A DNA stretch of 42,014 nt from Prevotella sp. (GTDB taxonomy: Bacteria > Bacteroidota > Bacteroidia > Bacteroidales > Bacteroidaceae). The DNA lies in NCBI GenBank assembly GCA_017619375.1, contig JAFZSL010000030.1, forward strand, positions 1-42,014, read 5' to 3'. The notes below the pieces were generated by a model. That model was not told the origin of the DNA, did not search any database, and saw only the letters and a program-made list of their open reading frames with translations. The position numbers and the translations under genes are program-made. Below are positions 7,244 through 38,725 of this stretch, in pieces. The first letter of the stretch is position 1; each line of letters opens with the position of its first letter.

Positions 7244-8341
7244 TCAGTCGTTCAGTTTCACCTCTCTCCATTTTGGCTTTATCTGGACAGGCTGGCCCAA
7301 AGACTTGATCATCTCACGGGCGGTCTCTTCATCTATGTTATCCCAGCCATCTACCGTGATTTTAGACTTGCCGCCCGAACCACCCGAGGCAGGATATTCG
7401 GTTATCATCTGCAACACATACCCATCCTTGAGAAAAGCAAAACTGGTGTATTCGTTGATTTCTGCTTTTGTCACCACCACGTTCGGATAGAAACTCAACT
7501 CATGATGACTGATGGGGTTGTTGATGCCAATCAGTTCGATGTCGCCCTTGTAGGGGGCGATGACCAGCATGCCCTCTTCATCGTCGTCGCTCAGCAGGTA
7601 AAAATAGTCTTCCTGTCCAGGAAGGGTTATGAAAGCAATCTTGGTCATCTCGACAAGGTAATCCGTCTCCTTTGGATTGAACCAGCGGTATCCGTATTTT
7701 AAGTCGTCGATGCTGACGTGCGAGAAGTGATGCTTGTTGCCATCCCAGGTGAAGACGTGGTTGATATTGCCTTGAAGGTTGATGTCGTATTCGCAAATAA
7801 TGAAATCCTTTCCCTTTTGGGGCAGGTTGTAACTAAAGTGGTTTTCCTTGTTGAGAGGGTGGTACTCTTGTTCTGGCCCCGTCTCCGGGTACAAGGTGGA
7901 GGTTTTTGGGTCGTAGTCGTAGAAGCATACGAACTCTATCTCCGGATCGACGGGTTGGCCCAGGACGATGGCAAATAACCGGTGTCCGTTGTCGCGGCGC
8001 CACACGCAAGCCTCCATGTAGCCGCTGTCTGAACCACCATTGTCCAGACTCACATAACCGTTTTTGCGGTCTACGGTGATGCCCCCTCCATATTCCTCGT
8101 CGACCTCATAGGTGAAGTTGGGGTTCTTGGCTTTCTCTAAAACGGGACTGATGGCGTAGGCGTTCCAGGTGTTCTGGAATGCCTTTACCAACTGTACAAT
8201 ACCTGGGTTGTTGCCGCCCTGGGGCACTTTGATGTTGCGTGACATCCATTGGTCGCGTATTTCTTCCAAAGAAGGATAATCGGTTGCTAACGCATATATG
8301 CTGGTCGTCACAGCCAAAAGAAGCAAAAAATATTTTTTCAT
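7244..8341 (-). CDS. Secreted protein of unknown function
   Basis: 365 residues with a signal peptide at 1-19 (LLLLAVTTSIYALA). I do not recognise the family. The mature part is acidic, rich in aromatic residues and glycine, and reads like repeated beta-strands (YDYDPKTSTLYPETGPEQEY, YFYLLSDDDEEGMLVIAPY). No catalytic motif, lipobox or membrane segment is visible. A -7 promoter box lies at 8365-8372. The gene stands alone: the GH43 gene upstream on the same strand is 161 bp away with that promoter between them. A periplasmic or surface location is likely from the signal peptide. Nothing supports a specific function. Confidence 0.75.
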   Translation of the reverse strand: MKKYFLLLLAVTTSIYALATDYPSLEEIRDQWMSRNIKVPQGGNNPGIVQLVKAFQNTWNAYAISPVLEKAKNPNFTYEVDEEYGGGITVDRKNGYVSLDNGGSDSGYMEACVWRRDNGHRLFAIVLGQPVDPEIEFVCFYDYDPKTSTLYPETGPEQEYHPLNKENHFSYNLPQKGKDFIICEYDINLQGNINHVFTWDGNKHHFSHVSIDDLKYGYRWFNPKETDYLVEMTKIAFITLPGQEDYFYLLSDDDEEGMLVIAPYKGDIELIGINNPISHHELSFYPNVVVTKAEINEYTSFAFLKDGYVLQMITEYPASGGSGGKSKITVDGWDNIDEETAREMIKSLGQPVQIKPKWREVKLND

Positions 8342-8364
8342 GGATTTTCTTTTTTATTCGACTG

Positions 8365-8372
8365 CAAAAATA
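8365..8372 (-). promoter_or_regulatory. -7 promoter box of the secreted unknown gene
   Basis: TATTTTTG on the minus strand, 24 nt before the ATG. The surrounding 17 nt (plus strand TGCAAAAATACCATTTT) are identical to those at the promoter of the hydrolase gene near 22230, which supports real promoter function. Confidence 0.5.
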
Positions 8373-8502
8373 CCATTTTATATGTAAATTCCATCTGTTT
8401 CCTCATAAAAATCAGCGATGACGGCAAAAAAGTGTGATTTCCGCTGTTCCTGGGGGACTTGCCAGAAGAACGTCCCCTTTTTGAACTTTCTAGGCTCAAT
8501 TC

Positions 8503-10113
8503 TTATCGGTTCCCACTATATTCAAACCAATCTATATCCACATACCCATTGTCCACCTCTTGGTCGCATTGTGCAAAGAGTCCGAGCATGACACCGGTAA
8601 AGCCACCGATAGTCTCGGTACTGAGAAAGCGGTACTCCATTTTGGCTAATTGTGTGAAGTTGATTCCATCGGACGAAACCATCATATAGTAGAAGTCCTT
8701 GTCGGATGTGATACGCAGATACGCAAGGTTGCCCGTCACAGAAATCTCTTTTTCTACGTGACAGGTCTGCCCCAGTCTTACATTCGATTTGACGAAAACT
8801 TTTCCGTCTCTTCTCTCGGCCACCACATCATAGTGGTTCAAAGGTGCGGCATAGGCTGTAACACCGGCTTGCATCCCTTCACAGAGGTGAGATAGGTCGA
8901 ATAGTGCTGTTGCCGAGAATGCCAGTTCTGTTTGTCTGCAAGCGATGAAAGTCGGTGATGCTGTTTCACTGAGGTTTGTGGTGGTGGGATGGAGCCTGAG
9001 CCACCCTTTGCGGTCGGTTAGCGAATATTTGGTATAGTCAGGATTGCACAGACTCATCCATCCCATGGGCAGCCCTAAGGAGTGGTGACTGTCTTTTGGG
9101 GCATTGCGTCTGATGTAATTGAATTCTTCTTTTATAGGGTCTTGAGCCAGTGGAACCAACGGGAGTGTTCTACATTTCATCTCTGTCTGCAATGTTCCGT
9201 CCCCATTTACAACAGGCCAGTCGCCTTGACTCCAACGCACGGGAGCAAGCATTGTCTCTCGACCCATTACATGTTGCAGATAGCCACTGGTCCGGTATCC
9301 AAGACATATCATCCACCAGGAAGAGTCGGGTGCTTGCACCAGGTCGGCATGCCCTAAACCCTGTATCGGACTGTTCTGCATCTTCATGTTGAAATGTGAG
9401 AGGATGGGATTGGCGGGGTTTGACTCATAGGGGCCATAAAGACTCTTGCTGCGCAGGATGTTCACATGATGCCCATGCTCAGTGCCACCCTCGGCCAACA
9501 ACAGGTAGTAGTAGCCGTCTTTCTTGTAGATGTGCGGTCCTTCAGGATATCGTCCTCCAAGGCCTGTGCCCAGGTGATGGATCTCACCCAGTTGCTTGCC
9601 CGTCTCCACATCAATCTCGCAGATTTTGATGTCGCCTTCCTTCCAAAGGAAATAGCATTTGTCTTCGTCAAAGAAGAGTGTAGGGTCACAACTGCCTATG
9701 GCAAAGTCAATCACGATGGGGTCCGACCACTCCCCTGCAGGGTTGTCTGTCCAGACATAGAAATGACAACGCGAGGGAAAGACCGTTGTCACCATATAAA
9801 AACGCCCATTGTTGTAGCGGATGGTTGGGGCATAGATGCCACTATTTCCATCAGTGTTCCTTAAGTCCACCTGATTGGGCCTTGTCAGGCAGTTGCCAAC
9901 TTGTTCCCAGTTCACCAAGTCCTTACTGTGGAATACAGGCACTCCGGGGAAGTATTGGAACGTGCTGTTTACAAGATAAAAGTCGTCACCGGCACGACAC
10001 ACGCTTGGATCGGCATGAAAACCTGGAAGCACGGGATTCCTGTATCCCTGGCCACAAACGCCAAGCGTCTGCATCAGCAAGGCTATGATTATTGTTGTTT
10101 TCAAATGTCTCAT
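8503..10113 (-). CDS. Glycoside hydrolase family 43 (beta-xylosidase / arabinofuranosidase type), exported
   Basis: 536 residues with a signal peptide at about 1-22. The five-bladed propeller catalytic domain covers about 23-310. The three family 43 carboxylates are visible: Asp35 (FHADPSV, general base), Asp143 (GSCDPTLFFDED, pKa modulator) and Glu191 (RYPEGPHIYKKDG, general acid). Residues about 330-536 form a C-terminal beta-sandwich of the GH43_C2/concanavalin-like type (ETASPTFIACRQ, VDIDWFEYS at the end). Members remove xylose or arabinose from xylan side chains and oligosaccharides; the exact substrate cannot be fixed here. It follows an unknown gene (10133-10864) by 19 bp and may share its transcript. 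There is no SusCD pair nearby. Confidence 0.93.
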   Translation of the reverse strand: MRHLKTTIIIALLMQTLGVCGQGYRNPVLPGFHADPSVCRAGDDFYLVNSTFQYFPGVPVFHSKDLVNWEQVGNCLTRPNQVDLRNTDGNSGIYAPTIRYNNGRFYMVTTVFPSRCHFYVWTDNPAGEWSDPIVIDFAIGSCDPTLFFDEDKCYFLWKEGDIKICEIDVETGKQLGEIHHLGTGLGGRYPEGPHIYKKDGYYYLLLAEGGTEHGHHVNILRSKSLYGPYESNPANPILSHFNMKMQNSPIQGLGHADLVQAPDSSWWMICLGYRTSGYLQHVMGRETMLAPVRWSQGDWPVVNGDGTLQTEMKCRTLPLVPLAQDPIKEEFNYIRRNAPKDSHHSLGLPMGWMSLCNPDYTKYSLTDRKGWLRLHPTTTNLSETASPTFIACRQTELAFSATALFDLSHLCEGMQAGVTAYAAPLNHYDVVAERRDGKVFVKSNVRLGQTCHVEKEISVTGNLAYLRITSDKDFYYMMVSSDGINFTQLAKMEYRFLSTETIGGFTGVMLGLFAQCDQEVDNGYVDIDWFEYSGNR

Positions 10114-10132
10114 TCTCTTGTATGTTTCTATT

Positions 10133-10864
10133 TTACGTTATTTCACCAATTGACAATTTGTTTGCAGTCACTTTTAGGTGAGCAGATTCAAATTCTGCGA
10201 CTATATACCCATTGTCAATATAGATTCTGCTTTCAGCCATATAGTCGTTTCCATAATCAATATCGGTTTCAATCCTGAGTAGGCCAGAAAATAAGAACTG
10301 GATGGTATGCGTATGGTTGTCTTTGCTCCATGCTGCGATTTGAGTGTCAACGATGACTTCCAAGGCATCATCTTCTCGATGATATGACATTGACCCTATC
10401 ACAGCATCATGCAGGTTCCATTCGTCTTCACCATAGAAATCTTGCAATTTGTCTACTCCAATGATTCTTTCTTTTGCTTCTAGGGCGATGCCTGTCGTCC
10501 TTTCCATGGCAATTTGTTTCAGGAAGGAGTCGTAATTATATTGGATGTCATTACGCATTTCTTTACAATGGCTGTACTTTATTGCCTCTTCGAAATATAA
10601 CTTCTTGGGTGCATACGCCCAACTGTCGCGTGCATGGTAAGCCATCCACATGCAAATGAAGCCATAGCAAGATGGTCTCTCCTTGAGTTCCTGTGCGAAC
10701 AAATATGCAGCACCCATTTTGTGCAAAGAACAAGATGGCACATAACTCGTGAGTTCCTTCCATCGAGCGAGCACATCGTCAATGGGCTTGTCGAAGACAT
10801 CCTCCACCAGAGTTATGACCAACATACATGGGTCGGATATGTATGAACCTATTTCCCTTTTCAT
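10133..10864 (-). CDS. Soluble protein of unknown function, two-part, immunity-protein-like C-terminus
   Basis: 243 residues from the ATG at 10862-10864; a TTG three codons upstream with GGAG 5 nt before it is an alternative start. No signal peptide or membrane segment. The first about 145 residues look alpha-helical and rich in Trp, Tyr and Cys (CYGFICMWMAYHARDSWAYAP). The last about 95 look like a beta-domain beginning WNLHDAVIGSMSYHREDDA and continuing IQFLFSGLLRIETDIDYG. That 'LHD...' beta pattern resembles small immunity or SMI-like proteins, but I cannot name a family, and no toxin gene is adjacent. The GH43 gene follows by 19 bp. A possible -7 box TATATTTG is at 11033-11040 on the minus strand. 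Confidence 0.65.
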   Translation of the reverse strand: MKREIGSYISDPCMLVITLVEDVFDKPIDDVLARWKELTSYVPSCSLHKMGAAYLFAQELKERPSCYGFICMWMAYHARDSWAYAPKKLYFEEAIKYSHCKEMRNDIQYNYDSFLKQIAMERTTGIALEAKERIIGVDKLQDFYGEDEWNLHDAVIGSMSYHREDDALEVIVDTQIAAWSKDNHTHTIQFLFSGLLRIETDIDYGNDYMAESRIYIDNGYIVAEFESAHLKVTANKLSIGEIT

Positions 10865-10873
10865 TTTTATCAA

Positions 10874-11128
10874 GGATTCTCCAAAACTATTGAGCCATAA
10901 TTCCGCAGCACTTTAGTTAAACATTTTTTATAAGTTCTTGAGCAACAAAAGTTGACGAGAATTATGCCATGTCGGAATCTTCACTTGTCTTAGTGCTGCA
11001 AAACAAAACAAGCAAAATCATCAATGGCATGGCAAATATAAGCATAAAATTTCAGAAAACTACCCCATTCAGAGGAATTTTTCACGAAATGGTCTTCTAC
11101 ATCGTTGACACTCTTTCCCTCCTGTCAA
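10874..11128. other. Gene-free stretch
   Basis: About 255 bp, A/T-rich. A weak plus-strand open frame crosses it but has no promoter or recognisable protein. The only signal seen is a minus-strand -7-like box, TATATTTG, at 11033-11040, without a good -33 element. No strong terminator for the gene ending at 11129 was found. Confidence 0.4.
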
Positions 11129-12208
11129 TCATGACAATTGTGATAGAGATGGCTTTTTATGTGTATTTCCGTTGGATTCGATAACTGTCTGTATGTCAAA
11201 TAATGTGTTATAAGTTGGTTTCAATGATGATAAAGGAGTGAGGTTGTCGGTACATCTATCCTCAATAACTTCAACAAATGCAGCGATTTCATTATAATAG
11301 CCTTGAGTATAGACTTGGTTGTTCGCTAATATGGACGTGAAATTGTTGCGCTGAAAGAGGATTTCTTTCGTCTCGTGACGTAGACGCAGTTTTTCTGTCG
11401 GGATGCCGAGAATGGTGGCGGGATTGGGCGTAAAAGCCAACGATTCCATTTGAGAGAGATGATAGACACCAGAACGGGTGCAGATTTTCAGGGACTCTTC
11501 GGCAGTAGACCATGAGTAGGTGGTTGAGAGTTCAAGGGTGCCGATGATATGCGGATGTTGGAGCATGAGGATGAACGAATCTTTGGCGATTTGGCGGCAA
11601 ACGAGGATTTCTGGCTGTCCGAATAGATAACATACGAGGTCGAGGGGATGGATGTATAAATCATGCAAAACGTTGCCTTCGGGATAGGCTCCTGTGAGGT
11701 AATGTAAATCGTAGTTAATAAGACGCTCTTTGCGGAGACGTTGTTTTAGGATTTGTACAGCGGGAGCATAGCGTTTCTGCAGTCCTACCATTGCGACGAG
11801 CGAGCCATATTGCTGCTGTAGGGCAATGAGTGTATCGAGTTCTTTCAGTGTCCGGCAGGGCGGCTTCTCAATAAAAAGTGATTTGCCACTCTGCAGCACT
11901 TGTGTGGCAATGGAGAAATGGGCCGACGGTGAGGCAGAAACGATGACGCCCTTGATGTCCTCGTCGTTCAGAATCTCATCGAGCGAATTCGTGCCCTTTA
12001 CTCTAAATTTTTCCTCTATAAGTTTTGCCTTCCGTTCCGACGTGACGCAGATGTATTTCAAGGGTACGCCGAGGTGGTGCAATACAGGATAGAGGTTGGT
12101 GAGCGAGTGCTGGCCCATACCCACGAAGGCATAATGATATTGGTACGTTTGGCGCAGGAACCGCTCCGTGCGCATACGTTTGTATCGGTTGATGATTTCT
12201 TGTATCAT
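11129..12208 (-). CDS. Gfo/Idh/MocA-family oxidoreductase
   Basis: 359 residues. The N-terminal Rossmann fold begins at about residue 25 (YAFVGMGQHSLTNLYPVL, glycine-rich NAD(P) loop). The family hallmark Glu114-Lys115-Pro116-Pro117 (LFIEKPPCRTL) follows SPSAHFSIATQVLQSGKS. The C-terminal catalytic/dimerisation part contains NVLHDLYIHPLDLVCYLFG. Such enzymes oxidise or reduce sugar carbons with NAD(P). An unusual basic N-terminal extension of about 24 residues precedes the Rossmann fold. The start overlaps the radical SAM gene by ATGA (12205-12208), so the two are translationally coupled and probably act on the same substrate, perhaps a modified sugar or polyol. Substrate unknown. Confidence 0.87.
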   Translation of the reverse strand: MIQEIINRYKRMRTERFLRQTYQYHYAFVGMGQHSLTNLYPVLHHLGVPLKYICVTSERKAKLIEEKFRVKGTNSLDEILNDEDIKGVIVSASPSAHFSIATQVLQSGKSLFIEKPPCRTLKELDTLIALQQQYGSLVAMVGLQKRYAPAVQILKQRLRKERLINYDLHYLTGAYPEGNVLHDLYIHPLDLVCYLFGQPEILVCRQIAKDSFILMLQHPHIIGTLELSTTYSWSTAEESLKICTRSGVYHLSQMESLAFTPNPATILGIPTEKLRLRHETKEILFQRNNFTSILANNQVYTQGYYNEIAAFVEVIEDRCTDNLTPLSSLKPTYNTLFDIQTVIESNGNTHKKPSLSQLS

Positions 12209-13266
12209 TGTATTGCTTTTAGATGTTTACGATAGGTTTGCTTGGGGTCTGCCGTCCACTGATACGGGCCGTAGAACCTTTCAATGAGCCACTTGGGCAG
12301 TAACCGCTCAAAGTTGCGCACGAGGATGATGTCGTACTTGCGGTGGAAGTTAATCCAGCAATCATTGCAATGGTGAGAGTAGTAACATTGAGTCTGACGG
12401 GCCGACGCTCCGTTGAAAATCTCGTCAAGCGTTTGCTCGTGAATGTTCCCCAACACCACGTCAAGATTTTGGCAGAGGGGAACGTCTCCATTGCTATGCA
12501 CGACAAGGCTGCTCATGATGCTTTGACAGCGCAGTCGAAGATGCCCGTTTCGCCATTCATCATAGAGTGCCACGAAGTCGTAGTTTTCCTGCGTGTTGTG
12601 GATGTTCTGGGGAATCTGCTTCACGAAATTCGACGCCGTCAGCAGTTCGCTCGTTGTATCAAAGAAGGCCATTGTACTGTAGATGCCTATGCGAATGTCT
12701 ATGCCGTAATGCTTGGCAACGTCTATGACATACGCCATATCTTCAAACGTGTTCCATGGTGAAAGGCAGAACATCAACGACAAGGGTACTTCATCTTTGA
12801 GAGTTTCCACCACTTTAATCACTCGGTCGTAGCCGTCACAGCCCCGCATTTGCTGGTAAGTCTCGTGGTCACCGTCGAGAGAGACGTACAGATGACGGGG
12901 GTGATAGCGACGGACGGCATCTATGACGAGACGGGGCGCGAGACAGTTGGATAGTAGCGTGTAGTTAGGGTGATTCTCTTGAAACCAGTCCATGATTTCA
13001 TCTGCCTGCGGGTGTAGGATGAACTCGCCCCCCTCCAGTCCTACGGTGGTTCTCTTGATCACACATCGGCTCTGCATGATACGTTGAATGTCTTCGAGCG
13101 AAAGATGCTCCACTGGCCGTTTCTGCCAGATGTTGCAGTGTTTGCACTTCGATTGACAGAGCGTAGTCGAGTAAATCATCAGTTGTGAGAGTCGCTTGTG
13201 TCTTGGCCTCATGACGTTGTTCAAATAGAGTAGTCCATTATAGGCGTAATCATGAATACTATACAT
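12205..13266 (-). CDS. Radical SAM protein with SPASM-like C-terminal cysteines
   Basis: 353 residues. The radical SAM [4Fe-4S] motif is Cys37-x3-Cys41-x2-Cys44 (TLCQSKCKHCNIW), followed by the glycine-rich SAM-binding segment TVGLEGGEFILHP and strands such as RHLYVSLDGDHE. A C-terminal SPASM/twitch-like region holds further cysteines (DVPLCQNLDVVLGNI, then CYYSHHCNDCW), suggesting auxiliary cluster(s). Members modify peptides or dehydrogenate small molecules such as sugars and inositols. No precursor peptide is visible next to it, while an NAD(P)-dependent oxidoreductase is coupled downstream, so a small-molecule substrate is more likely. It lies 65 bp after the sigma/beta-barrel fusion gene, with an inverted repeat and promoter-like box between. 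Confidence 0.88.
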   Translation of the reverse strand: MYSIHDYAYNGLLYLNNVMRPRHKRLSQLMIYSTTLCQSKCKHCNIWQKRPVEHLSLEDIQRIMQSRCVIKRTTVGLEGGEFILHPQADEIMDWFQENHPNYTLLSNCLAPRLVIDAVRRYHPRHLYVSLDGDHETYQQMRGCDGYDRVIKVVETLKDEVPLSLMFCLSPWNTFEDMAYVIDVAKHYGIDIRIGIYSTMAFFDTTSELLTASNFVKQIPQNIHNTQENYDFVALYDEWRNGHLRLRCQSIMSSLVVHSNGDVPLCQNLDVVLGNIHEQTLDEIFNGASARQTQCYYSHHCNDCWINFHRKYDIILVRNFERLLPKWLIERFYGPYQWTADPKQTYRKHLKAIQ

Positions 13267-22381: not shown

Positions 22382-22412
22382 TTTGGTGGTTGTCAAAAAA
22401 GATGTATATTTG
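22382..22412 (+). promoter_or_regulatory. Promoter of the reverse transcriptase locus
   Basis: TTTG (22382-22385), 19 nt, TATATTTG (22405-22412): an exact fit to the Bacteroidetes consensus. It predicts a start of transcription near 22419 and a leader of about 50 nt before the ATG at 22468. No second promoter was seen before the reverse transcriptase, so one transcript should cover partner gene, intergenic RNA and reverse transcriptase. Confidence 0.8.
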
Positions 22413-22467
22413 CAATCTGCTCAACTGTTTGAAGTTGGGTGAATGTAAAACCAAATATATTACTGCT

Positions 22468-22989
22468 ATGGATTTTATAAAGGTATTGTTGAAACTGGTG
22501 GGACTCGCCAAGGAATACATTGACGAATCACCCAAGCAAGCCGCCCCTGCGCGGCAGCCTCGGTACGAACCGCGACAGGAAGAGCCCGTTGTCGTGGAAA
22601 GGGAGAAGACCGCCGAAGAATGGGAAGCCTATTTCAGGGAAATCCTGTCGAGTGAGTTCTCTGCCTACAGCGTTCGTGAGAAAGTACCGGTCACGGATAT
22701 CGCAGGATTTGCCAACGATGAGTTCAAACTCTACAAGAAACGCCCTTATCAGGCCTACAAAGCCGAATGGGGCCAGCCATACACCTTCGTGCTGGAAAAA
22801 GACGGAAAGGCTAAGGGGGTGGTGATGCTCGGCAACGGCCACAGTCACTACAACAATGTCAAATACCTGATAGCAAGGGTGTATGCCAAGAAACTGGGTG
22901 TTCCCTACATCAACTTCTACACGCAGATGGAAAATGAGAGAGGTTATGTCATTGGGCGCATCCGCAAGTTTTTGAACGGGGAGGCATGA
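22468..22989 (+). CDS. Small protein of unknown function, partner of the reverse transcriptase
   Basis: 173 residues from the ATG at 22468; a longer frame from 22321 is excluded by the promoter at 22382-22412. An N-terminal amphipathic helix (MDFIKVLLKLVGLAKEYI) is followed by a Pro/Arg/Glu-rich linker (about 22-50) and a compact domain (about 50-173) with EWEAYFREILSSEFSAYSV, GQPYTFVLEKDGKAKGVVM, GHSHYNNVKYLIARVYAKK and NERGYVIGRIRKFL. The domain end recalls small nuclease-like folds of the DUF2726/restriction-endonuclease kind, but I see no complete D...ExK site, so this is only a guess. It precedes the reverse transcriptase by 161 bp on the same transcript. Confidence 0.78.
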   Translation: MDFIKVLLKLVGLAKEYIDESPKQAAPARQPRYEPRQEEPVVVEREKTAEEWEAYFREILSSEFSAYSVREKVPVTDIAGFANDEFKLYKKRPYQAYKAEWGQPYTFVLEKDGKAKGVVMLGNGHSHYNNVKYLIARVYAKKLGVPYINFYTQMENERGYVIGRIRKFLNGEA

Positions 22990-23002
22990 TACTCGAAGAG
23001 AC

Positions 23003-23141
23003 AAGGAAAAAGGGGATGCAGCACGGCTGTGCCTGCGATGGAGGCAGCCTTGGCCATTTCTAATGGTTTTGCAGGCAACAGGGCAAGGTACCCTCTTGTG
23101 ATCAGCAATTTTGCTGATTCAAAATCTTTCCCCTTTTTCTT
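23003..23141 (+). ncRNA. Structured intergenic RNA candidate closed by a 12-bp stem, upstream of the reverse transcriptase
   Basis: The 161 bp between the two genes fold as a closed unit. GGAAAAAGGGGA (23005-23016) pairs with TCCCCTTTTTCT (23129-23140), 12 pairs counting one G.U, plus a further A-T. Inside are GCAG-CAC-GGCT-GTG-c-CTGC (about 23018-23036), a CCAT-TTCTA-ATGG hairpin (about 23054-23066) and the perfect ATCAGCAA-TT-TTGCTGAT hairpin (23101-23118). The spacer has no gene and is longer than needed for a same-strand pair. The position just before a reverse transcriptase suggests a template/primer or binding RNA, in the manner of retrons, but this is inference. Confidence 0.55.
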
Positions 23142-23150
23142 CTTTTCATC

Positions 23151-24356
23151 ATGGAAAGCATCATCACCCAACTGACCCAGCAAAAGGCTTGGGAGGAGTT
23201 TCTCAAATACCGACTGCTGAAAGGTCGTTTCAACTGGCATGAGTTCGACGTCGCCGACAGCTATGTGGAGCAAGAGAAATATCTTCACATGGCTCAAAAG
23301 ATTGCGCGCTGCGAAGACTTGAGCATTCCCCAAAAGATGATGGTCAACAAGATGGGGGCGGGCAGGAAACGGGTGGTTTACAGTTTTGCGCCCGACGAGA
23401 TGACGATGCTCAAGTTCATAGCCTATGGACTCTATCATTACGATGGGCATTTCGCCCCCAACTGCTATGCCTTCCGTCGGGGCGTGAAGGCTCATGACGC
23501 CATCCGCAGCATCAACAGGGCTATCAACGGACGGCCCATGTGGGCGTACAAACTCGACATCCATGACTATTTCAATTCCATCTCCATAGACATCCTCCTG
23601 CCGATGTTGGAGGAAATGTTGGCCGACGACCCGCCTTTATACCATTTCTTTGAAAGGATGCTGACCAACAACCATGTAGAATACAATGGCGAGGTCATCC
23701 TTGAGAGTCACGGCGTGATGGCAGGCATACCCACGTCGCCATTCCTGGCCAATGTCTACCTCAAGGAAGTGGACTGGCATTTTCATAAGGTTGGCGCCAT
23801 CTATGCCCGCTATTCCGACGATATCATCATGTTTGCTCCTGACCGTGCCATTCTGGAAGAATACAAGGGGTGGATGGAGGGTTTTCTCAGTCAATACCGA
23901 CTTGAGGTCAACCCGGAGAAGGTGAATGTTTATTCTCCCGACAAGGCATACGAGTTCTTGGGTTTCAAATGCCATGCCGGCGACATCGACATATCTGATT
24001 CGACCAAGAAAAAGATGAAAGGCAAAATCAGGCGGGCGGCTCACTCTCTGCTGCGCTGGAGCAGAAAGAATCACCTTCCTCCCGAAAAGGCGATGAAGGG
24101 CCTCGTCAACCGTTTCAACCGAAAGTTCTTTGAGGGTGACGATGCCGAAACGCTCTCCTGGTCGCGTTGGTTCTTCCCCATCGTCAACCAGGTTGACGGC
24201 CTAAGGGAAATCGACCATTACCTTCAGCAGTATGTACGCTACCTCGGCACGGGAAGACATTGCAAGGCCAACTACAAGACGGACTACGCCCAATTGAAAC
24301 GACTGGGTTACCGGAGTTTGGTCAACGAGTTCTACAAGTTCAAGGATAATCGATAG
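23151..24356 (+). CDS. Free-standing reverse transcriptase, maturase-like lineage
   Basis: 401 residues. Reverse transcriptase palm motifs are intact: Asp136 in YKLDIHDYFNSIS, the GIPTSPFLANVYLKEVD segment (192-208), the catalytic Tyr-Ser-Asp223-Asp224 (ARYSDDIIMFA), and EFLGFKCHAGD (268-277) beginning the thumb side. The C-terminal 110 residues are basic and helical (SLLRWSRKNHLPPEKAMKG, YVRYLGTGRHCKAN). There is no endonuclease, integrase or HNH domain, no intron boundaries, and no retron-type VTG motif. No variable-repeat target protein of a diversity-generating retroelement is nearby. It is therefore a domesticated or defence-type enzyme of unclear group. It follows a structured 161-bp spacer and a small unknown gene. 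Confidence 0.92.
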   Translation: MESIITQLTQQKAWEEFLKYRLLKGRFNWHEFDVADSYVEQEKYLHMAQKIARCEDLSIPQKMMVNKMGAGRKRVVYSFAPDEMTMLKFIAYGLYHYDGHFAPNCYAFRRGVKAHDAIRSINRAINGRPMWAYKLDIHDYFNSISIDILLPMLEEMLADDPPLYHFFERMLTNNHVEYNGEVILESHGVMAGIPTSPFLANVYLKEVDWHFHKVGAIYARYSDDIIMFAPDRAILEEYKGWMEGFLSQYRLEVNPEKVNVYSPDKAYEFLGFKCHAGDIDISDSTKKKMKGKIRRAAHSLLRWSRKNHLPPEKAMKGLVNRFNRKFFEGDDAETLSWSRWFFPIVNQVDGLREIDHYLQQYVRYLGTGRHCKANYKTDYAQLKRLGYRSLVNEFYKFKDNR

Positions 24357-26445: not shown

Positions 26446-27387
26446 ATGTGGAATAAACCTTGGAGAATGCAAGAGGGTTTCGTGATCGGGGGCGGACTCA
26501 TCTGCGCCGGTCTGATGCTTGAACTGGCTGTCGGAAAGGTGATGTGGGATGCCTTCTCTTGGCCTGCCAACCTCATCGTGCTGGCGGGATTCCTTCTTCT
26601 TGCTCTGTTGTTCTTCTTGCAGCCGAAATCCTATTTCAGTCGCTTCCTCGCCTCCTATCATGCTGCCGTTCCCGCCTTGGTCTATGTCGTGGCGCTTACG
26701 ATAATCATGGGACTCACACGCCAGCAGGCGAATGGCACCTGGTTCAACGACATGCTCTCGTTCTGGCCATTCGTACTCATCTACACCTATGTGGCACTGA
26801 TTCTCGCTTTGGTCGTCCTCAACCGCCTGTCTCGGCTGCTGAGAGGGAAAAAGAAATGGGTATGGCGTAGCGACGTGCCTTTTTTCCTCAACCACGGCGG
26901 AATTCTTATCGCCCTCGTCACCGCCACGCTGGGCAATGCTGACATGCAGCGACTGAAGATGATCACCGTGGTGGGCGAACCCGAGTGGCGGGCCGTCGAC
27001 GACAGGGGTGTGGTGCAGGAACTGCCCATCGCCATCCAACTCAAGAAATTCATCCTTGAGGAATACCCCGCCGAGATGGAGCCACAAATCTCTGCCGACT
27101 CTGTGATGATGCAGCGCACGCCCAAGCGGTTTGCCAGCGACATACTGATTCTCACCAAGTCGGGAAAGAAAATCTCTGCCACGGTCGATGTCAATCAACC
27201 CGTGAGCATCGAAGGATGGAATATCTACCAGTATGGCTACGACACGCAGATGGGCGCCATGAGCAGCATAAGCATCCTCGAACTGGTTAGCGACCCGTGG
27301 CTGCCCTTTGTTTATACCGGCATCTGGATGATGATAGCAGGAGCAATCACCATGTTTATTTTTGGAGTGAGGAGGAAGAGAGCATGA
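26446..27387 (+). CDS. ccsB: Cytochrome c biogenesis protein CcsB/ResB-like (copy 1)
   Basis: 313 residues. Four membrane segments are visible (GGGLICAGLMLELAVG, LIVLAGFLLLALLFFL, FWPFVLIYTYVALILALVV, IWMMIAGAITMFIFG) with a periplasmic domain between the third and fourth (NADMQRLKMITVVGEPEW, QLKKFILEEYPAEM, IYQYGYDTQMGAMSS). With CcsA it forms the system II heme-delivery and ligation complex. The stop overlaps the ccsA start by ATGA. A very similar pair lies at 37044-38725 behind nrfHA. This copy has no cytochrome gene next to it. It starts 37 bp after the unknown membrane protein. Confidence 0.9.
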   Translation: MWNKPWRMQEGFVIGGGLICAGLMLELAVGKVMWDAFSWPANLIVLAGFLLLALLFFLQPKSYFSRFLASYHAAVPALVYVVALTIIMGLTRQQANGTWFNDMLSFWPFVLIYTYVALILALVVLNRLSRLLRGKKKWVWRSDVPFFLNHGGILIALVTATLGNADMQRLKMITVVGEPEWRAVDDRGVVQELPIAIQLKKFILEEYPAEMEPQISADSVMMQRTPKRFASDILILTKSGKKISATVDVNQPVSIEGWNIYQYGYDTQMGAMSSISILELVSDPWLPFVYTGIWMMIAGAITMFIFGVRRKRA

Positions 27388-28172
27388 CTTGGACACATTT
27401 CCCTTATTTCGCCATCGTGGCGGTATTGCTGTGGATGGCTGGAGCATGGCTTGCATGGAAAGACCGGCGCAAGCAGGCCGTTGCCATGACCAGCACCGGA
27501 CTGGTGGTGTTCTTTGCGTTCATCGTCCTGTTCTGGATTGCTCTTGAACGGCCTCCCCTGCGCACCATGGGCGAGACGCGCCTATGGTATTCTTTCTTCC
27601 TGCCGCTCTCGGGACTGCTTGTCTATGGACGGTGGAAATACAAGTGGATTCTCACATTCTCCACCGTCCTGGCACTCGTCTTCATCTGTGTCAACCTGCT
27701 CAAGCCCGAGATTCATTCCAAGACGTTGATGCCGGCCCTGCAGAGCCCGTGGTTTGCACCCCATGTCATCGTCTACATGTTTGCCTATGCCCTGCTCGGC
27801 GCCTCGGCGGTCATGGCATTCTATCTGTTGTTTTTCAAGAAGCAGCAGCCGACGAAGGAGGAGTTCGGCATCTGCGACGACCTCGTCAACGTGGGGCTGG
27901 CTTTCATGACAGTCGGCATGCTCTTCGGGGCGCTTTGGGCAAAGGAGGCATGGGGACACTATTGGTCGTGGGACCCGAAGGAGACATGGGCGGCCATCAC
28001 ATGGTTTGCCTACCTCGTCTATGTGCACTACCGGCGCATCTCCTCACACCATGGCAAAGTGGCGCTTTGGATGCTCCTTGTAGCCTTCGTCTTGCTCCAG
28101 GTGTGTTGGTGGGGAATCAACTACCTGCCCAGCGCACAAGGCTCCAGTGTGCATACCTACTCTACCTCCTGA
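27384..28172 (+). CDS. ccsA: Cytochrome c biogenesis protein CcsA-like (copy 1)
   Basis: 262 residues from the ATG at 27384, overlapping the ccsB stop by 4 bp. Eight or so membrane segments. The tryptophan-rich heme-binding loop is intact (WGHYWSWDPKETWAAITW), as are histidines in the conserved positions (FAPHVIVYMFAYA and YVHYRRISSHH). It is the partner of CcsB for export of heme and its ligation to apocytochromes c. Long stretches are identical with copy 2 (for example RTMGETRLWYSFFLPL and VLALVFICVNL), pointing to duplication. A longer upstream start inside ccsB is not needed. Confidence 0.92.
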   Translation: MTWTHFPYFAIVAVLLWMAGAWLAWKDRRKQAVAMTSTGLVVFFAFIVLFWIALERPPLRTMGETRLWYSFFLPLSGLLVYGRWKYKWILTFSTVLALVFICVNLLKPEIHSKTLMPALQSPWFAPHVIVYMFAYALLGASAVMAFYLLFFKKQQPTKEEFGICDDLVNVGLAFMTVGMLFGALWAKEAWGHYWSWDPKETWAAITWFAYLVYVHYRRISSHHGKVALWMLLVAFVLLQVCWWGINYLPSAQGSSVHTYSTS

Positions 28173-34734: not shown

Positions 34735-34789
34735 CATTTAGCATCCTCATAAATGAGTATTTTTGTTGTCTAAATGGAAACTTTTACGT

Positions 34790-35389
34790 ATGAGTTGGAA
34801 AAAGTTGTTGACACTTAAAGGTTTGTTCTCATACAAGCAGAAAGTAGGCTTACTGGTCTTGGCGGGTGTAATCTGCGGTCTCGGCGGGCTGTTCATGTAC
34901 CTGCTCAGGGCGCATACCTACTTCGTGGGCGACAACCCATCGGCCTGTGTCAACTGTCACATCATGACACCCTATTATGCCACATGGAGCCACTCCTCGC
35001 ATGGACGCGACGCCACGTGCAACGACTGTCACGTGCCCCACCAGAACCTCGCCCTGAAATATGGCTTCAAGGCGATGGATGGCCTGAAACACACGGCTTA
35101 CTTCGTGACCCACTCCGAGCGGCAGGCTCCTATGGCAGAAAAACTGACGGGAGAGGTGGTGATGGACAACTGCATCCGCTGCCATACGCAACTCAATCAG
35201 GAATTTGTGAAGACAGGTCGGATGGGTTACATGCAACAGCAGGCTCAAGGCGGGAAAGTGTGCTGGGACTGTCATCGCAACGTACCCCATGGTGGCATGA
35301 ACTCGCTGATGGCCACACCGAATGCGGAGGGTGTGACACCGCTGCCGCCCTCACTGGTGCCGGAATGGTTGCAGAAGATAATGAATTGA
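34790..35389 (+). CDS. nrfH: Cytochrome c nitrite reductase small subunit NrfH
   Basis: 199 residues from the ATG at 34790. One N-terminal membrane segment at about 19-38 (GLLVLAGVICGLGGLFMYL). Four CxxCH heme sites are visible: CVNCH, CNDCH, CIRCH and CWDCH. It is the NapC/NirT-type quinol dehydrogenase that takes electrons from menaquinol to NrfA. nrfA follows by 41 bp and ccsBA after that, so the operon carries its own heme-attachment proteins. Confidence 0.96.
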   Translation: MSWKKLLTLKGLFSYKQKVGLLVLAGVICGLGGLFMYLLRAHTYFVGDNPSACVNCHIMTPYYATWSHSSHGRDATCNDCHVPHQNLALKYGFKAMDGLKHTAYFVTHSERQAPMAEKLTGEVVMDNCIRCHTQLNQEFVKTGRMGYMQQQAQGGKVCWDCHRNVPHGGMNSLMATPNAEGVTPLPPSLVPEWLQKIMN

Positions 35390-35430
35390 CTGTCATCATT
35401 CGCAAACAAAGAAACTAAAATCCAAACAAT

Positions 35431-36966
35431 ATGGCAAAGACGTTAAAGAAATGGCAAGGTTGGGCACTATTCTTAGGCTCGATGGTTGTCGTGTTCCTGT
35501 TGGGACTGCTTGTTTCGTCGTTGATGGAACGACGTGCGGAAGTGGCGAGCGTGTTCAACAACAAGCGCACGGTGTTTGAGGACAGCATCGTGGCGGTGAA
35601 CGAGAAGTTCAAGGCCGACTATCCTCGTGAGTATGAGACATGGGCGATGACGGAGGACACCACGTTCAAGTCGATGTACAACTCGTCGCAGGAGGTGGAC
35701 GTGCTTGAGCAACGTCCCGAGATGGTGGTGCTGTGGGCTGGCTATGCTTTTTCGCGCCACTACAACACACCACGCGGTCACAAGCACTGCATCGAGGACC
35801 TGCGCAAGATTCTGCGCACCGGCAATCCGGGCATCGATGGCGACAGCGACATGCAACCAGCCACCTGCTGGACGTGCAAGGGACCCGACGTGCCCCGTAT
35901 GATGCGCGAACTGAGTGGTTCGAAGTCTGTCTTCGACCCTGCAAACTATTATGCCTATGAGGGCAAGTGGAGCGGACTTGGTGCGGAGATGATGAATTCT
36001 GTTGGTTGCAGCGACTGTCACGACGCCAGGACAATGGACCTGCGTCCCGCCCGTCCCGCCATCTATGAGGCATTCGCCCGAAGAGGTCTCGAAGTCAGAA
36101 AGCAGAGCCATCAGGAGATGCGCTCGCTGGTGTGCGCCCAATGCCATGTGGAGTACTATTTCATCAAGCCCGATGACCCCAACAATCCCGGCAAGGCCAA
36201 CTATCTGGTGTTCCCGCACGACAAGGGCCTGACCTGCGAGGCTGCTGAAGAATATTACGACAGCATCGGATTCTATGACTATATCCATCCGCTGTCGAAG
36301 ACCCCGATTCTGAAAGCCCAGCATCCAGGCTATGAAATGTCACAACACGGCATCCATGCCCAGCGTGGCGTGTCTTGCGCCGACTGCCACATGCCATACA
36401 AACAAGAGGGCGGCGTGAAGTTCAGCGATCACCAAATCATGTCTCCGCTTGCAAAAATCGACCGTACTTGCCAGACCTGTCACCGTCAGGATGCGGAAGT
36501 GTTGCGTCAGAACGTCTATGACCGTCAGGCGAAGTGCAACGAGGTTCGCAACCGTGCCGAACAGGAACTTGCCCGTGCCCACTTCGAGACGAAGTTCCTT
36601 ATTGACAAGGGGGCCACAGAAGCCGAGTTGAAACCCATCCAGGCTCTGCTGCGCAAGAGCCAGTGGCGCTGGGACTATGCCATTGCCTCGCATGGAGCCA
36701 CTTTCCATGCTCCTCAGGAAGTGACCAGACTGCTGTCCCACTCCGTGGATTATGCCCAGCAGGCCCGTCTGCTTATCGCTCGTGTTGCAGCCAAGTATGG
36801 ACATACCGGCGAAATCCCCGTGCCTGACTATTCCACCAAGGCAAAGGCACAGGCTGCCATCGGTCTCGATATGAACACACTGAATGGCAAGAAGCAGCGC
36901 TTCCTCCAAGAGGTGGTTCCGAAGTGGATTGAAGAGGCGAAAAAGAACGGAAAGGTCGCGATTTAG
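35431..36966 (+). CDS. nrfA: Ammonia-forming cytochrome c nitrite reductase NrfA
   Basis: 511 residues. An N-terminal membrane anchor/signal covers 10-30. The active-site heme motif is Cys146-Trp-Thr-Cys149-Lys150 (CxxCK, lysine ligand). Four classical CxxCH hemes follow: Cys193-Cys196-His197, Cys235-Cys238-His239, Cys316-Cys319-His320 and Cys347-Cys350-His351. The helical C-terminal part ends KWIEEAKKNGKVAI. It reduces nitrite to ammonium with six electrons, in the periplasm with NrfH. All five heme sites are intact. The product, ammonium, links this locus to the glnK-amtB operon 4 kb away. Confidence 0.97.
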   Translation: MAKTLKKWQGWALFLGSMVVVFLLGLLVSSLMERRAEVASVFNNKRTVFEDSIVAVNEKFKADYPREYETWAMTEDTTFKSMYNSSQEVDVLEQRPEMVVLWAGYAFSRHYNTPRGHKHCIEDLRKILRTGNPGIDGDSDMQPATCWTCKGPDVPRMMRELSGSKSVFDPANYYAYEGKWSGLGAEMMNSVGCSDCHDARTMDLRPARPAIYEAFARRGLEVRKQSHQEMRSLVCAQCHVEYYFIKPDDPNNPGKANYLVFPHDKGLTCEAAEEYYDSIGFYDYIHPLSKTPILKAQHPGYEMSQHGIHAQRGVSCADCHMPYKQEGGVKFSDHQIMSPLAKIDRTCQTCHRQDAEVLRQNVYDRQAKCNEVRNRAEQELARAHFETKFLIDKGATEAELKPIQALLRKSQWRWDYAIASHGATFHAPQEVTRLLSHSVDYAQQARLLIARVAAKYGHTGEIPVPDYSTKAKAQAAIGLDMNTLNGKKQRFLQEVVPKWIEEAKKNGKVAI

Positions 36967-37043
36967 CGAGAGCAGAGCCAAACTTTCTTCAACTCTGCCG
37001 AGCATAAGCAAACTCGACTTGAGGTCAAACTCATCGAAAAGTG

Positions 37044-37937
37044 ATGTGGACTAAACCCTATGGAATGAAAGAAGGCTTCCTCGTTGGAGGAGGCCTTATC
37101 TTTGCGGGACTGATGCTGGAATTGAGTGTCGGTCCTGTCGATTGGGATGCTTTCCGATGGCCTGTCAACGGAATTGTGTTGGCAGGATTTCTTGGTATCA
37201 TTGCCATCATCTATCTTCTCAGGAAGAAGGTGTACGGCTTCCTGTTCATCGGCACCTACAAGGCCGCTATACCCGCTTTGATTTATGCCGTCGTGCTGAC
37301 CGTCATTATGGGACTGACGCGGCAGACTGTTGACGGTAGATGGCTGAACAACATGTTGTCGTTCTGGCCTTTCATACTGATTTATGTGTATATCGCCGTT
37401 ATTCTGGGGCAGATTATTATCCTGCGGATTTTCAATTTTCATTTTTCATTTTTCAATTTGAAAAAAGACATTCCATTCTTGCTGAATCATTTGGGATTGT
37501 TTCTCGCGATGACCACCGCCACCTTGGGCAATGCCGACATGCAGCGGCTGAAGATGATTACGGTGAAGGGAGAGCCCGAGTGGCGTGCATTGACCTCGAA
37601 GCAGCAGATTGTGGAGATGCCCATCGCCATCGAACTGAAGGAGTTTGTCATGGAGACCTACGATGACGGTTCTCCCCGTCGCTTTGCTTCAGACATCCAG
37701 ATTCTGACTAAGTCGGGCAGGAATATCTTGACCACTGTAGAAGTGAACAAGCCCGTAGAGGTGGACGGTTGGAAGATTTACCAATACGGTTACGACACGC
37801 AGATGGGTGCCATGAGCCAGACAAGCATTCTTGAACTGGTGAGCGATCCATGGCTGCCGCTGGTTTATACGGGCATCTATATGATGCTGGGCGGTGCTGT
37901 ATGTATGTTTGTTTTCGGTGGGAGGAGACGCGTATGA
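37044..37937 (+). CDS. ccsB: Cytochrome c biogenesis protein CcsB/ResB-like (copy 2, nrf operon)
   Basis: 297 residues from the ATG at 37044 (a GTG directly before is the alternative). Same layout as copy 1: N-terminal MWTKPYGMKEGFLVGGGLI, four membrane segments, a periplasmic domain with NADMQRLKMITVKGEPEW and IYQYGYDTQMGAMSQ. It is shorter than copy 1 in the periplasmic domain (after ELKEFVMETYDDG), where copy 1 has an insertion. The region around 37430-37460 is T-rich and repetitive. The stop overlaps ccsA by ATGA. It supplies heme attachment for NrfH and NrfA. Confidence 0.92.
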   Translation: MWTKPYGMKEGFLVGGGLIFAGLMLELSVGPVDWDAFRWPVNGIVLAGFLGIIAIIYLLRKKVYGFLFIGTYKAAIPALIYAVVLTVIMGLTRQTVDGRWLNNMLSFWPFILIYVYIAVILGQIIILRIFNFHFSFFNLKKDIPFLLNHLGLFLAMTTATLGNADMQRLKMITVKGEPEWRALTSKQQIVEMPIAIELKEFVMETYDDGSPRRFASDIQILTKSGRNILTTVEVNKPVEVDGWKIYQYGYDTQMGAMSQTSILELVSDPWLPLVYTGIYMMLGGAVCMFVFGGRRRV

Positions 37938-38725
37938 CCTGGGAGCAATTCATATATTTTGCAATAGCAGCAGTATTACTGTGGGCCATAGGAGCCTGGG
38001 CAGCATGGCGTGACAGGAAGACGATGGCCTATGCATCGACCATCATAGGACTCATCGTGTTCTTCAGTTTCATCCTGATGATTTGGATATCGCTGGAACG
38101 ACCACCATTAAGGACAATGGGCGAGACGCGCCTCTGGTACTCGTTCTTCCTGCCGCTGGCGGGCATCATCGTCTATTTCCGTTGGAAGTACAAATGGATT
38201 CTCTCATTCTCTACCGTCCTGGCGTTGGTGTTTATCTGCGTCAACCTCTTCAAGCCAGAGATTCATTCCAAGACGCTGATGCCGGCCCTGCAGAGTCCTT
38301 GGTTCGCCCCGCATGTCATCGTCTATATGTTCGCCTACGCCGTGTTGGGTGCTTCGGCTGTGATGGCACTCTATCTGTTGTTCTTCCGGAAAGACAATAT
38401 TGCCGACGAAGAATTCGACATCACGGATAACCTGGTGTATGTCGGCTTGGCTTTCATGACCATTGGCATGCTCTTAGGGGCATTGTGGGCCAAGGAGGCC
38501 TGGGGACATTATTGGTCGTGGGACCCCAAGGAGACATGGGCCGCCATCACCTGGTTCGCCTATCTGGTGTATGTGCATTACAGGCAAATACCCACACACA
38601 AGCCAAAATTCGCCCTGTGGGTATTGCTCATTTCGTTTGTACTCTTGCAGATGTGTTGGTGGGGCATCAATTACCTACCCTCGGCCCAAGGCTCCAGCGT
38701 CCATGTCTATAGTATGCCGTCATAA
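37934..38725 (+). CDS. ccsA: Cytochrome c biogenesis protein CcsA-like (copy 2, nrf operon)
   Basis: 263 residues from the ATG at 37934, overlapping ccsB by 4 bp. The heme loop WGHYWSWDPKETWAAITW is identical to copy 1, as are FAPHVIVYMFAYA and long internal stretches. It works with CcsB in system II cytochrome c maturation. It is the last gene of nrfHA-ccsBA; the convergent VOC gene ends 18 bp further on, with no obvious terminator between. Confidence 0.93.
   Translation: MTWEQFIYFAIAAVLLWAIGAWAAWRDRKTMAYASTIIGLIVFFSFILMIWISLERPPLRTMGETRLWYSFFLPLAGIIVYFRWKYKWILSFSTVLALVFICVNLFKPEIHSKTLMPALQSPWFAPHVIVYMFAYAVLGASAVMALYLLFFRKDNIADEEFDITDNLVYVGLAFMTIGMLLGALWAKEAWGHYWSWDPKETWAAITWFAYLVYVHYRQIPTHKPKFALWVLLISFVLLQMCWWGINYLPSAQGSSVHVYSMPS

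Follow-up and report, generated by a model that had tools for sequence, protein, structure and literature searches.

A UG26 reverse transcriptase of Prevotella with an RT-5 RNA and a probably Vsr-like partner protein: a possible system for RNA-templated synthesis of short-repeat DNA

Introduction

A free-standing bacterial reverse transcriptase (RT) raises the question of what it copies, with which partners, and to what end. We address this question for a locus of Prevotella sp. (assembly GCA_017619375.1, contig JAFZSL010000030.1), which lies in a stretch of 42,014 nucleotides that was analysed whole and is here called the window. An earlier note on this DNA had described one promoter, a 173-residue gene and a 401-residue RT with Asp136 and YSDD, and these features were borne out by the open reading frames (ORFs), by a count of promoter patterns and by alignments. 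As the outline of a two-part unit, however, that description stood only for the two genes, both of which were confirmed, and overlooked a structured RNA (RF03026, 88 bits) between them. The locus is a three-part unit consisting of an RT, a folded RNA and a small protein, and its components are arranged as follows.

22382..22412, plus strand: Bacteroidetes-type promoter TTTG-N19-TATATTTG, upstream of the partner gene
22468..22989, plus strand: partner gene, 173 amino acids (ATG at 22468, stop codon ending at 22989)
23006..23139, plus strand: full structured RNA, 134 nt, from the RT-5 match and an alignment of relatives
23151..24356, plus strand: UG26 reverse transcriptase, 401 amino acids, from its ORF and a profile match

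Our reading, to which we give a probability of roughly 0.6, is that the UG26 RT is an RNA-templated member of the DRT (defence-associated reverse transcriptase) systems that makes complementary DNA (cDNA) of short repeats, and that it forms a working ribonucleoprotein together with the RT-5 RNA and, in this lineage, with the partner protein.

The promoter pattern used here follows the Bacteroidetes consensus. Sites of the TTTG type with a spacer of 18-22 number six in the window against 0.54 expected, and 17 of 34 loci have a looser form of it in the 130 nt that precede the partner start, as compared to 48 of 3000 random stretches. The promoter at 22382-22412 probably drives the whole unit, that is, partner, RNA and RT.

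The reverse transcriptase belongs to family UG26

The earlier note had left the RT unclassified, a view that did not survive comparison with the PADLOC profiles. The best match is RT_UG26, at 530.5 bits over residues 3-399, followed by a generic RT profile (116.7 bits), UG27 (105.7), UG17, which equals DRT10 (102.6), UG4 (100), Drt3a (88) and Drt9 (87.8). Because the UG26 match is so far above the next profile, the window RT is, on profile evidence, a member of this catalogued family. All 32 aligned RTs match the UG26 profile, and each of the six lower-ranking profiles also matches all 32 at E 1e-5. The catalytic residues are invariant in the 32 aligned RTs (the window RT included) and at least 97% conserved in a set of 49 UG26 RTs:

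23556..23558, plus strand: codon of Asp136, from the RT alignments
23811..23822, plus strand: YSDD catalytic motif, residues 221-224, from the RT alignments

The description of the enzyme as free-standing, rather than as a group II maturase in place, was upheld. The group II maturase reading was rejected on a score of 121.8 bits, far below the cut-off of 300, on RVT_1 being the sole Pfam family to pass its cut-off, and on the Rfam scan of the window, which returned no intron family over threshold. A typical retron had likewise been discounted in the earlier note, and rightly so, as the St85 retron model scores 62.6 bits against a cut-off of 235 and the hallmarks of retron RTs, which we take to be NAxxH and VTG, occur in 0 and 1 of the 49 UG26 RTs, respectively, with VTG absent by eye from the window RT; the retron reading was rejected on these two grounds. 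The UG26 match also disfavours a diversity-generating retroelement, for which no search for a template and variable repeat pair was made.

Two further RT sequences may be recorded here. The window's own genome carries a second RT (G000:C2:2201-3418) of 24% identity, whose matched stretch contains one TGA and one TAA; it is possibly the remnant of a group II intron RT. In one close relative (L027, 4001-5008) the RT frame stops early, at 336 amino acids, and the RNA and partner look whole.

A structured RNA lies between the two genes

The Rfam family RT-5 (RF03026) matches positions 23027-23131, between the genes, at 88 bits (E 2.8e-16, curated cut-off 45.7), and is the sole Rfam family over threshold in the window. 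The Rfam model, 104 positions long, shows neither a closing stem nor a pseudoknot in its structure line. In an alignment of relatives, GAAAAAGGGGA at the 5' end of the RNA pairs with UCCCCUUUUUC at the 3' end, giving an RNA of 134 nt (23006-23139), which in the window is separated from the RT start codon by 11 nt. Its parts are listed below.

23006..23016, plus strand: closing stem P1, 5' strand, outside the Rfam model (covariation)
23018..23030, plus strand: hairpin P2 (covariation)
23031..23036, plus strand: pseudoknot 5' strand, GCCUGC (covariation)
23040..23096, plus strand: P3/P4 arm, with P3 formed by 23040-23055 and 23081-23096, and P4 at 23065-23080
23071..23076, plus strand: pseudoknot 3' strand, GCAGGC, in the P4 loop (covariation)
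23101..23118, plus strand: hairpin P5 (covariation), which would bound the template on its 5' side
23118..23128, plus strand: UUCAAAAUCUU, the loop proposed as template, with the first U paired within P5 and with UCAAA unchanged in all RNAs read
23129..23139, plus strand: closing stem P1, 3' strand (covariation)

A fold that includes both the closing stem and the pseudoknot is supported by covariation in two alignments. The first (A3) holds 35 RNAs and was not fitted to a structure, and the 46-pair structure including the pseudoknot was tested on it; the second (A4) holds 46 RNAs, 44 of them distinct and 11 from distant loci, and was fitted to the nested structure, with the pseudoknot outside the fitted model. 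Counts from A4 consequently lean towards the nested structure, because the alignment was fitted to it. In A3, 95.6% of cells are paired and 16 of the 46 pairs have changed on both sides, a number reached in none of 500 shuffles (mean 8.1) and compared to at most 7 for slid versions of the structure; for further pair types, one of the five measures used, 10 of 500 shuffles reached the observed value. In A4, 96.4% of cells are paired and 36 of 46 pairs have changed on both sides, whereas the shuffles average 19.4, none of 500 gets as high, and slid versions reach 16 at most. The closing stem P1 is paired in 96.3% of cells in A3, where seven of its 11 pairs never vary and one has changed on both sides, and in 100% in A4, where 10 of the 11 have done so; for hairpin P5 the corresponding pairs number four of seven in A3 and seven of seven in A4.

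Taken alone, the pseudoknot is paired in 99.2% of cells, and seven cells have changed on both sides, as in none of 500 shuffles. Its variants comprise GCCUGC/GCAGGC, ACCUGC/GCAGGU and GCCUUC/GAAGGC, to which reading by eye adds GCUUUC/GAAAGC in three distant loci (L046, L049, L050). By eye, UUUG in the P4 loop seemed able to make a tertiary contact with CAAA in the template loop, an idea that was dropped when L050 was found to lack UUG at that place and to retain UUCAAA.

A conserved loop and a candidate priming residue

The sequence UCAAA, 3' of P5 and 5' of the closing stem, is present in all 46 aligned RNAs and, by eye, in four more (L046, L049, L050, L061), or 50 of 50; the longer UUCAAA occurs in 45 of the 46 aligned RNAs, with GUCAAA in L025. 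The template lies just 3' of the last hairpin in DRT3a (PMC13174585), DRT9 (PMC12483538) and DRT10 (PMC12632851). Because its position matches the template site of these three systems, we infer that the loop with UCAAA may be the template of the UG26 RT.

In DRT9 (PMC12483538) and DRT10 (PMC12632851) the RT primes DNA synthesis with a tyrosine or serine in its C-terminal part; no such residue was identified for DRT3a (PMC13174585). From residue 300 onwards, a single position of the UG26 RT carries Y, S or T in 97% or more of the 49 RTs, and it appears to be the best candidate for the primer residue:

24285..24287, plus strand: Tyr379 (Y379), candidate priming residue, a conserved hydroxyl residue

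The RNA accompanies UG26 in most loci

A scan of genome contigs yielded 37 close relatives, 68-85% identical in their best segment, annotated as uncultured Prevotella, Prevotellaceae, Bacteroidales and the like, and many of them from cattle, sheep, yak or buffalo. The RNA is present in all 37, passing the Rfam threshold in 35 of 35 and found by our own model in L036 and L037; in two of the loci (L010 and L028) the 5' end is cut off. Of 19 further UG26 loci (L041-L051, L053-L060), 16 show the RNA next to or not far from the RT, the distance being 3 kb in one of them, and in two (L051 and L056) the contig ends within the locus.

Of 395 genomes sampled from the phylum, the window's own was the only one to yield either the RT or the RNA, stricter filters having been applied in the RNA search. 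Within the order, 11 of 393 genomes (its own included) carry a UG26 RT, as do 10 of 18 genomes of the genus g225, and the unit is mostly single-copy. Plasmid and phage collections held distant RTs only, the best at 31% identity among the matches listed, and one scan of viral_contigs gave a single match at 23% identity.

RNA and RT gene are not always adjacent. In genome G602 (L061, G602:C12:44000-51493) the partner and an RNA of 119.1 bits occupy C12:46.2-46.9 kb, and the RT follows at 49999-51189, which places the RNA 3.06 kb upstream of the RT, with trkA- and trkH-like genes (named by reading the proteins) in between. In three genomes of g225 (G776, G784 and G790) over 550 nt separate the RT from the RNA upstream of it, and in G776 (L066, G776:C20:25000-36602) the intervening DNA holds an ORF of 158 amino acids (8064-8540) resembling a lipoprotein.

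The partner is probably a Vsr-like protein

The ORF lister called the partner gene at 222 amino acids, with a start upstream of the promoter; most relatives start near MDF, as does the 173-residue version used here. The partner consists of an amphipathic N-terminal helix, a Pro/Gln-rich linker and a probable Vsr/DUF559-like domain at about residues 46-173. It lies upstream of the RT in 35 of the 37 close relatives, at full length in 33 and cut by a contig end in two, the remaining two (L010 and L028) leaving no room for it. It was found further in G592 (L041), in G602 and in six loci of g225 (L043, L044, L045, L053, L054, L055), and in L057, L058 and L059 the sequence immediately 5' of the RNA resembles, by eye, the partner's end. 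Locus L046 offers too little sequence for this check.

The PADLOC profile RTasCOG2852 matches 28 of 29 partners and is weak in the window partner (22 bits). A structural model of the partner resembles Vsr-type nucleases, and no acidic, Lys or His position is kept in at least 97% of 36 partners; the protein is probably Vsr-like, with no catalytic site shared by the whole family. A search of the PDB with a partner profile returned nothing meaningful, and a search of 188 genomes with RTasCOG2852 gave no match and missed even the partner of the window's own genome, making it uninformative.

Proposed mechanism

In the mechanism that we propose, a single promoter would transcribe partner, RNA and RT, and the RNA would be excised from the transcript and fold into the closing stem, hairpins P2-P5 and the pseudoknot, the step for which covariation speaks. 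The RT would copy the single-stranded loop 3' of P5, with its core 5'-UCAAA-3', and P5, to judge from its position, would halt the enzyme. Repeated copying might then yield DNA of short units, for instance repeats of AGATTTTGAA or TTTTGA, although this step is speculative; cDNA repeats complementary to UUCAAAAUCU would be expected from the proposed template. Synthesis would be primed on a tyrosine of the RT itself, Y379 being the best candidate. As for the partner, which is probably Vsr-like, does probably not cut and has an amphipathic tail, it might bind either the RNA or the newly made DNA, possibly at the membrane, and could conceivably act as adaptor or effector. The likeliest purpose, given the family, would be defence against phage.

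Genomic neighbourhood and selection

Ratios of nonsynonymous to synonymous substitution rates (dN/dS) are 0.06-0.22 in eight RT pairs and 0.10-0.17 in three of four partner pairs, the fourth, with almost no changes, giving 0.81. By this measure RT and partner are under purifying selection.

Pfam matches among the 10 window neighbours comprise TonB-like proteins (two), GNAT, ResB, cytochrome c assembly and an ammonium transporter, with four proteins left without a match. About 9 kb from the unit, on the minus strand (12205-13266), lies a radical-SAM-like protein with 26.8 bits to prokaryotic viperin profiles. The window also contains two similar-looking pairs of ResB/CcsA-type cytochrome c assembly genes about 10 kb apart (26446-28172 and 37041-38725), the first named by Pfam and the second by reading; the second adjoins genes that read as cytochrome-c-nitrite-reductase-like (34763-36966).

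For 87 neighbours in relatives, 99 PADLOC families were matched, with two members each among the 25 families listed, and these matched neighbours are probably RecQ-type helicases. Reading of the proteins identified an HsdR-like protein of type I restriction upstream in L027, a DNA-methyltransferase-like gene (9781-11601) directly downstream of the RT in L066 (G776), which is a possible defence neighbour, and a yggS-like neighbour common to L047, L048 and L050. Because the neighbours in the window look like housekeeping genes, the case for a defence role rests on kinship, by which an anti-phage role of the unit is plausible.

Weighing the alternatives

Several observations weigh against parts of the proposed reading. 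On the RNA side, the pseudoknot alone has two pairs changed on both sides, a count reached by 21 of 500 shuffles, and UCAAA may be a protein-binding site instead of a template. One UG26 RT, L060 (G786:C206), which is the second of its genome, has no recognisable RNA beside it; that genome carries one RNA, on another contig. The kinship of UG26 with Class 2 systems is taken here from profile ranks (UG27, UG17, UG4, Drt3a and Drt9 coming next) and not from a tree. True UG17 or Drt9 RTs sought in the order for such a tree gave weak matches only, at most 168 bits, and the one true UG27 RT found (L083, G419:C42, 761 bits) has no Rfam match and no visible partner of the UG26 kind in its surroundings, where our own RNA models were not run. 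PADLOC assigns the 10 window proteins a single weak viperin (pVip) match and thus no visible defence island, and two groups, of 10 and seven relatives, have neighbouring genes in common, as a vertically inherited housekeeping gene would. As for the small partner, which the earlier note had called dedicated, it stands beside all 35 testable close homologues, but no partner ORF of at least 90 amino acids was seen in four of four distant UG26 loci (L047, L048, L049, L050); because the partner occurs in only part of the UG26 loci, the core of the family is taken to be RT and RNA. The note's nuclease-like domain with an incomplete active site fared similarly: the Vsr-like model and the lack of a catalytic-type residue at the 97% level in 36 partners agree with it, but six residues (Glu71, Glu100, His125, His127, Lys132, Lys142) are invariant among 29 closer partners, and in this lineage the partner may have enzymatic activity. 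It is because of these six residues that we give some weight to the partner being an active nuclease, an effector that infection would switch on, though we consider it unlikely.

A bolder form of RNA-templated synthesis, offered tentatively and with the odds against it, would be a hitherto undescribed telomerase-like bacterial unit in which the RT and its small RNA, whose conserved pseudoknot lies beside a fixed template, make DNA of a constant repeat that is recognised by a non-cutting, membrane-tethered Vsr-like effector. DRT10 resets on an A-B-A' repeat (PMC12632851). In UG26 a repeat of at least 3 nt occurs in 18 of 26 distinct loops against 13.6 with the downstream letters shuffled (P 0.047; for mean length, P 0.17), and the copy further downstream runs into the closing stem, which likewise counts against repeated copying as proposed; the repeat was set aside as proof of telomerase-like repeat addition, being not clearly above chance. 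The combination of RT, structured RNA and accessory protein would also suit a retron-like unit, in which a long stretch of RNA is copied once into branched multicopy single-stranded DNA (msDNA) that silences a toxin or toxin-like partner, and the St85 model does see the RT domain. Its 62.6 bits are far below 235 and the UG26 match stands at 530 bits, the hallmark motifs are lacking as counted above, and reading by eye revealed no msr/msd inverted repeat with a branching G, no search for one having been made; we regard such a unit as improbable. Nor do we favour the RNA as merely a cis-regulatory leader of the RT gene, with another template for the enzyme, which seems to us every bit as improbable: the RNA does end 11 nt before the RT start in the window and in most loci immediately precedes the RT, but the G602 RNA (119 bits) and partner are split from the RT by other genes, and the spacing in G776, G784 and G790, filled in G776 by an ORF, argues the same way. 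Its distance from the RT gene in G602 and the three g225 genomes suggests that the RNA is more than an RT leader.

It is harder to set aside a domesticated unit with the same RNA-templated chemistry and a purpose other than defence, such as stress response or DNA repair, although we still think it unlikely. The housekeeping type of the window neighbours, neighbouring genes common to groups of 10, seven and three relatives, the mostly single copy per genome, purifying selection and the lone 23% match in viral_contigs all accord with it. The patchy presence in 11 of 393 genomes of the order, and in 10 of 18 in g225, is what would be expected of an accessory function, however, and restriction-type neighbours were read in some relatives (L027, L066). 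Moreover, the Class 2 systems DRT2, DRT9 and DRT10 act in defence (PMC12632851).

Relation to known systems and significance

The three components are already known as names in Rfam and PADLOC. In PADLOC, UG26 is the same RT over its whole length and RTasCOG2852 is the profile that matches the partner, and the entries as listed carry neither an RNA nor a mechanism; the Rfam RNA RT-5 is the same as that of the window, without the closing stem and pseudoknot found here. UG26 is listed among viral RTs in PMC10504277.

A close likeness is to DRT10 (UG17; PMC12632851), which is also tripartite and has a non-coding RNA (ncRNA) of similar length (137 nt), a loop just 3' of a stable hairpin and a C-terminal hydroxyl candidate. 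The DRT10 partner is SLATT, however, whereas that of the window is Vsr-like, and the DRT10 template loop is poorly conserved, whereas the core of the UG26 loop is fixed and an A-B-A' arrangement is not established for it. DRT9 (UG28; PMC12483538) has a poly-U tract in place of UCAAA, the window unit has an extra partner protein, and the window RT is some 80-100 residues shorter than the solved DRT9 chains. ncRNA-templated repeat cDNA is common to DRT3a, with the same position of the template loop as proposed here (PMC13174585), and to DRT2, with a shared promoter and a processed ncRNA resembling those of the proposed unit (PMC11100668); in contrast to these systems, there is no second RT beside the window RT and no rolling-circle gene template is apparent.

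A literature search found no paper on how UG26 works, the UG/Abi survey and the discovery paper of RT-5 lying outside that search. Mestre 2022 is reportedly the UG/Abi survey that defines these RT groups, and Weinberg 2017 is said to be the paper describing the RT-5 RNA. What appears to be new is the link of RT-5 to UG26 and a conserved partner, the closing stem, pseudoknot and fixed UCAAA loop of the RNA, its position apart from the RT gene in certain genomes, and Y379 as candidate priming residue; part of these findings may already be in print.

The analysis joins the RT-5 RNA, the UG26 RT and the RTasCOG2852 protein into one testable machine, and the proposal predicts the site of the template, the base pairs that hold the RNA together and the tyrosine on which synthesis starts. 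If it is true, many Prevotella-like genomes would harbour another mode of RNA-templated synthesis of repeat DNA, and their pseudoknot-template RNA would be useful for comparison with telomerase.

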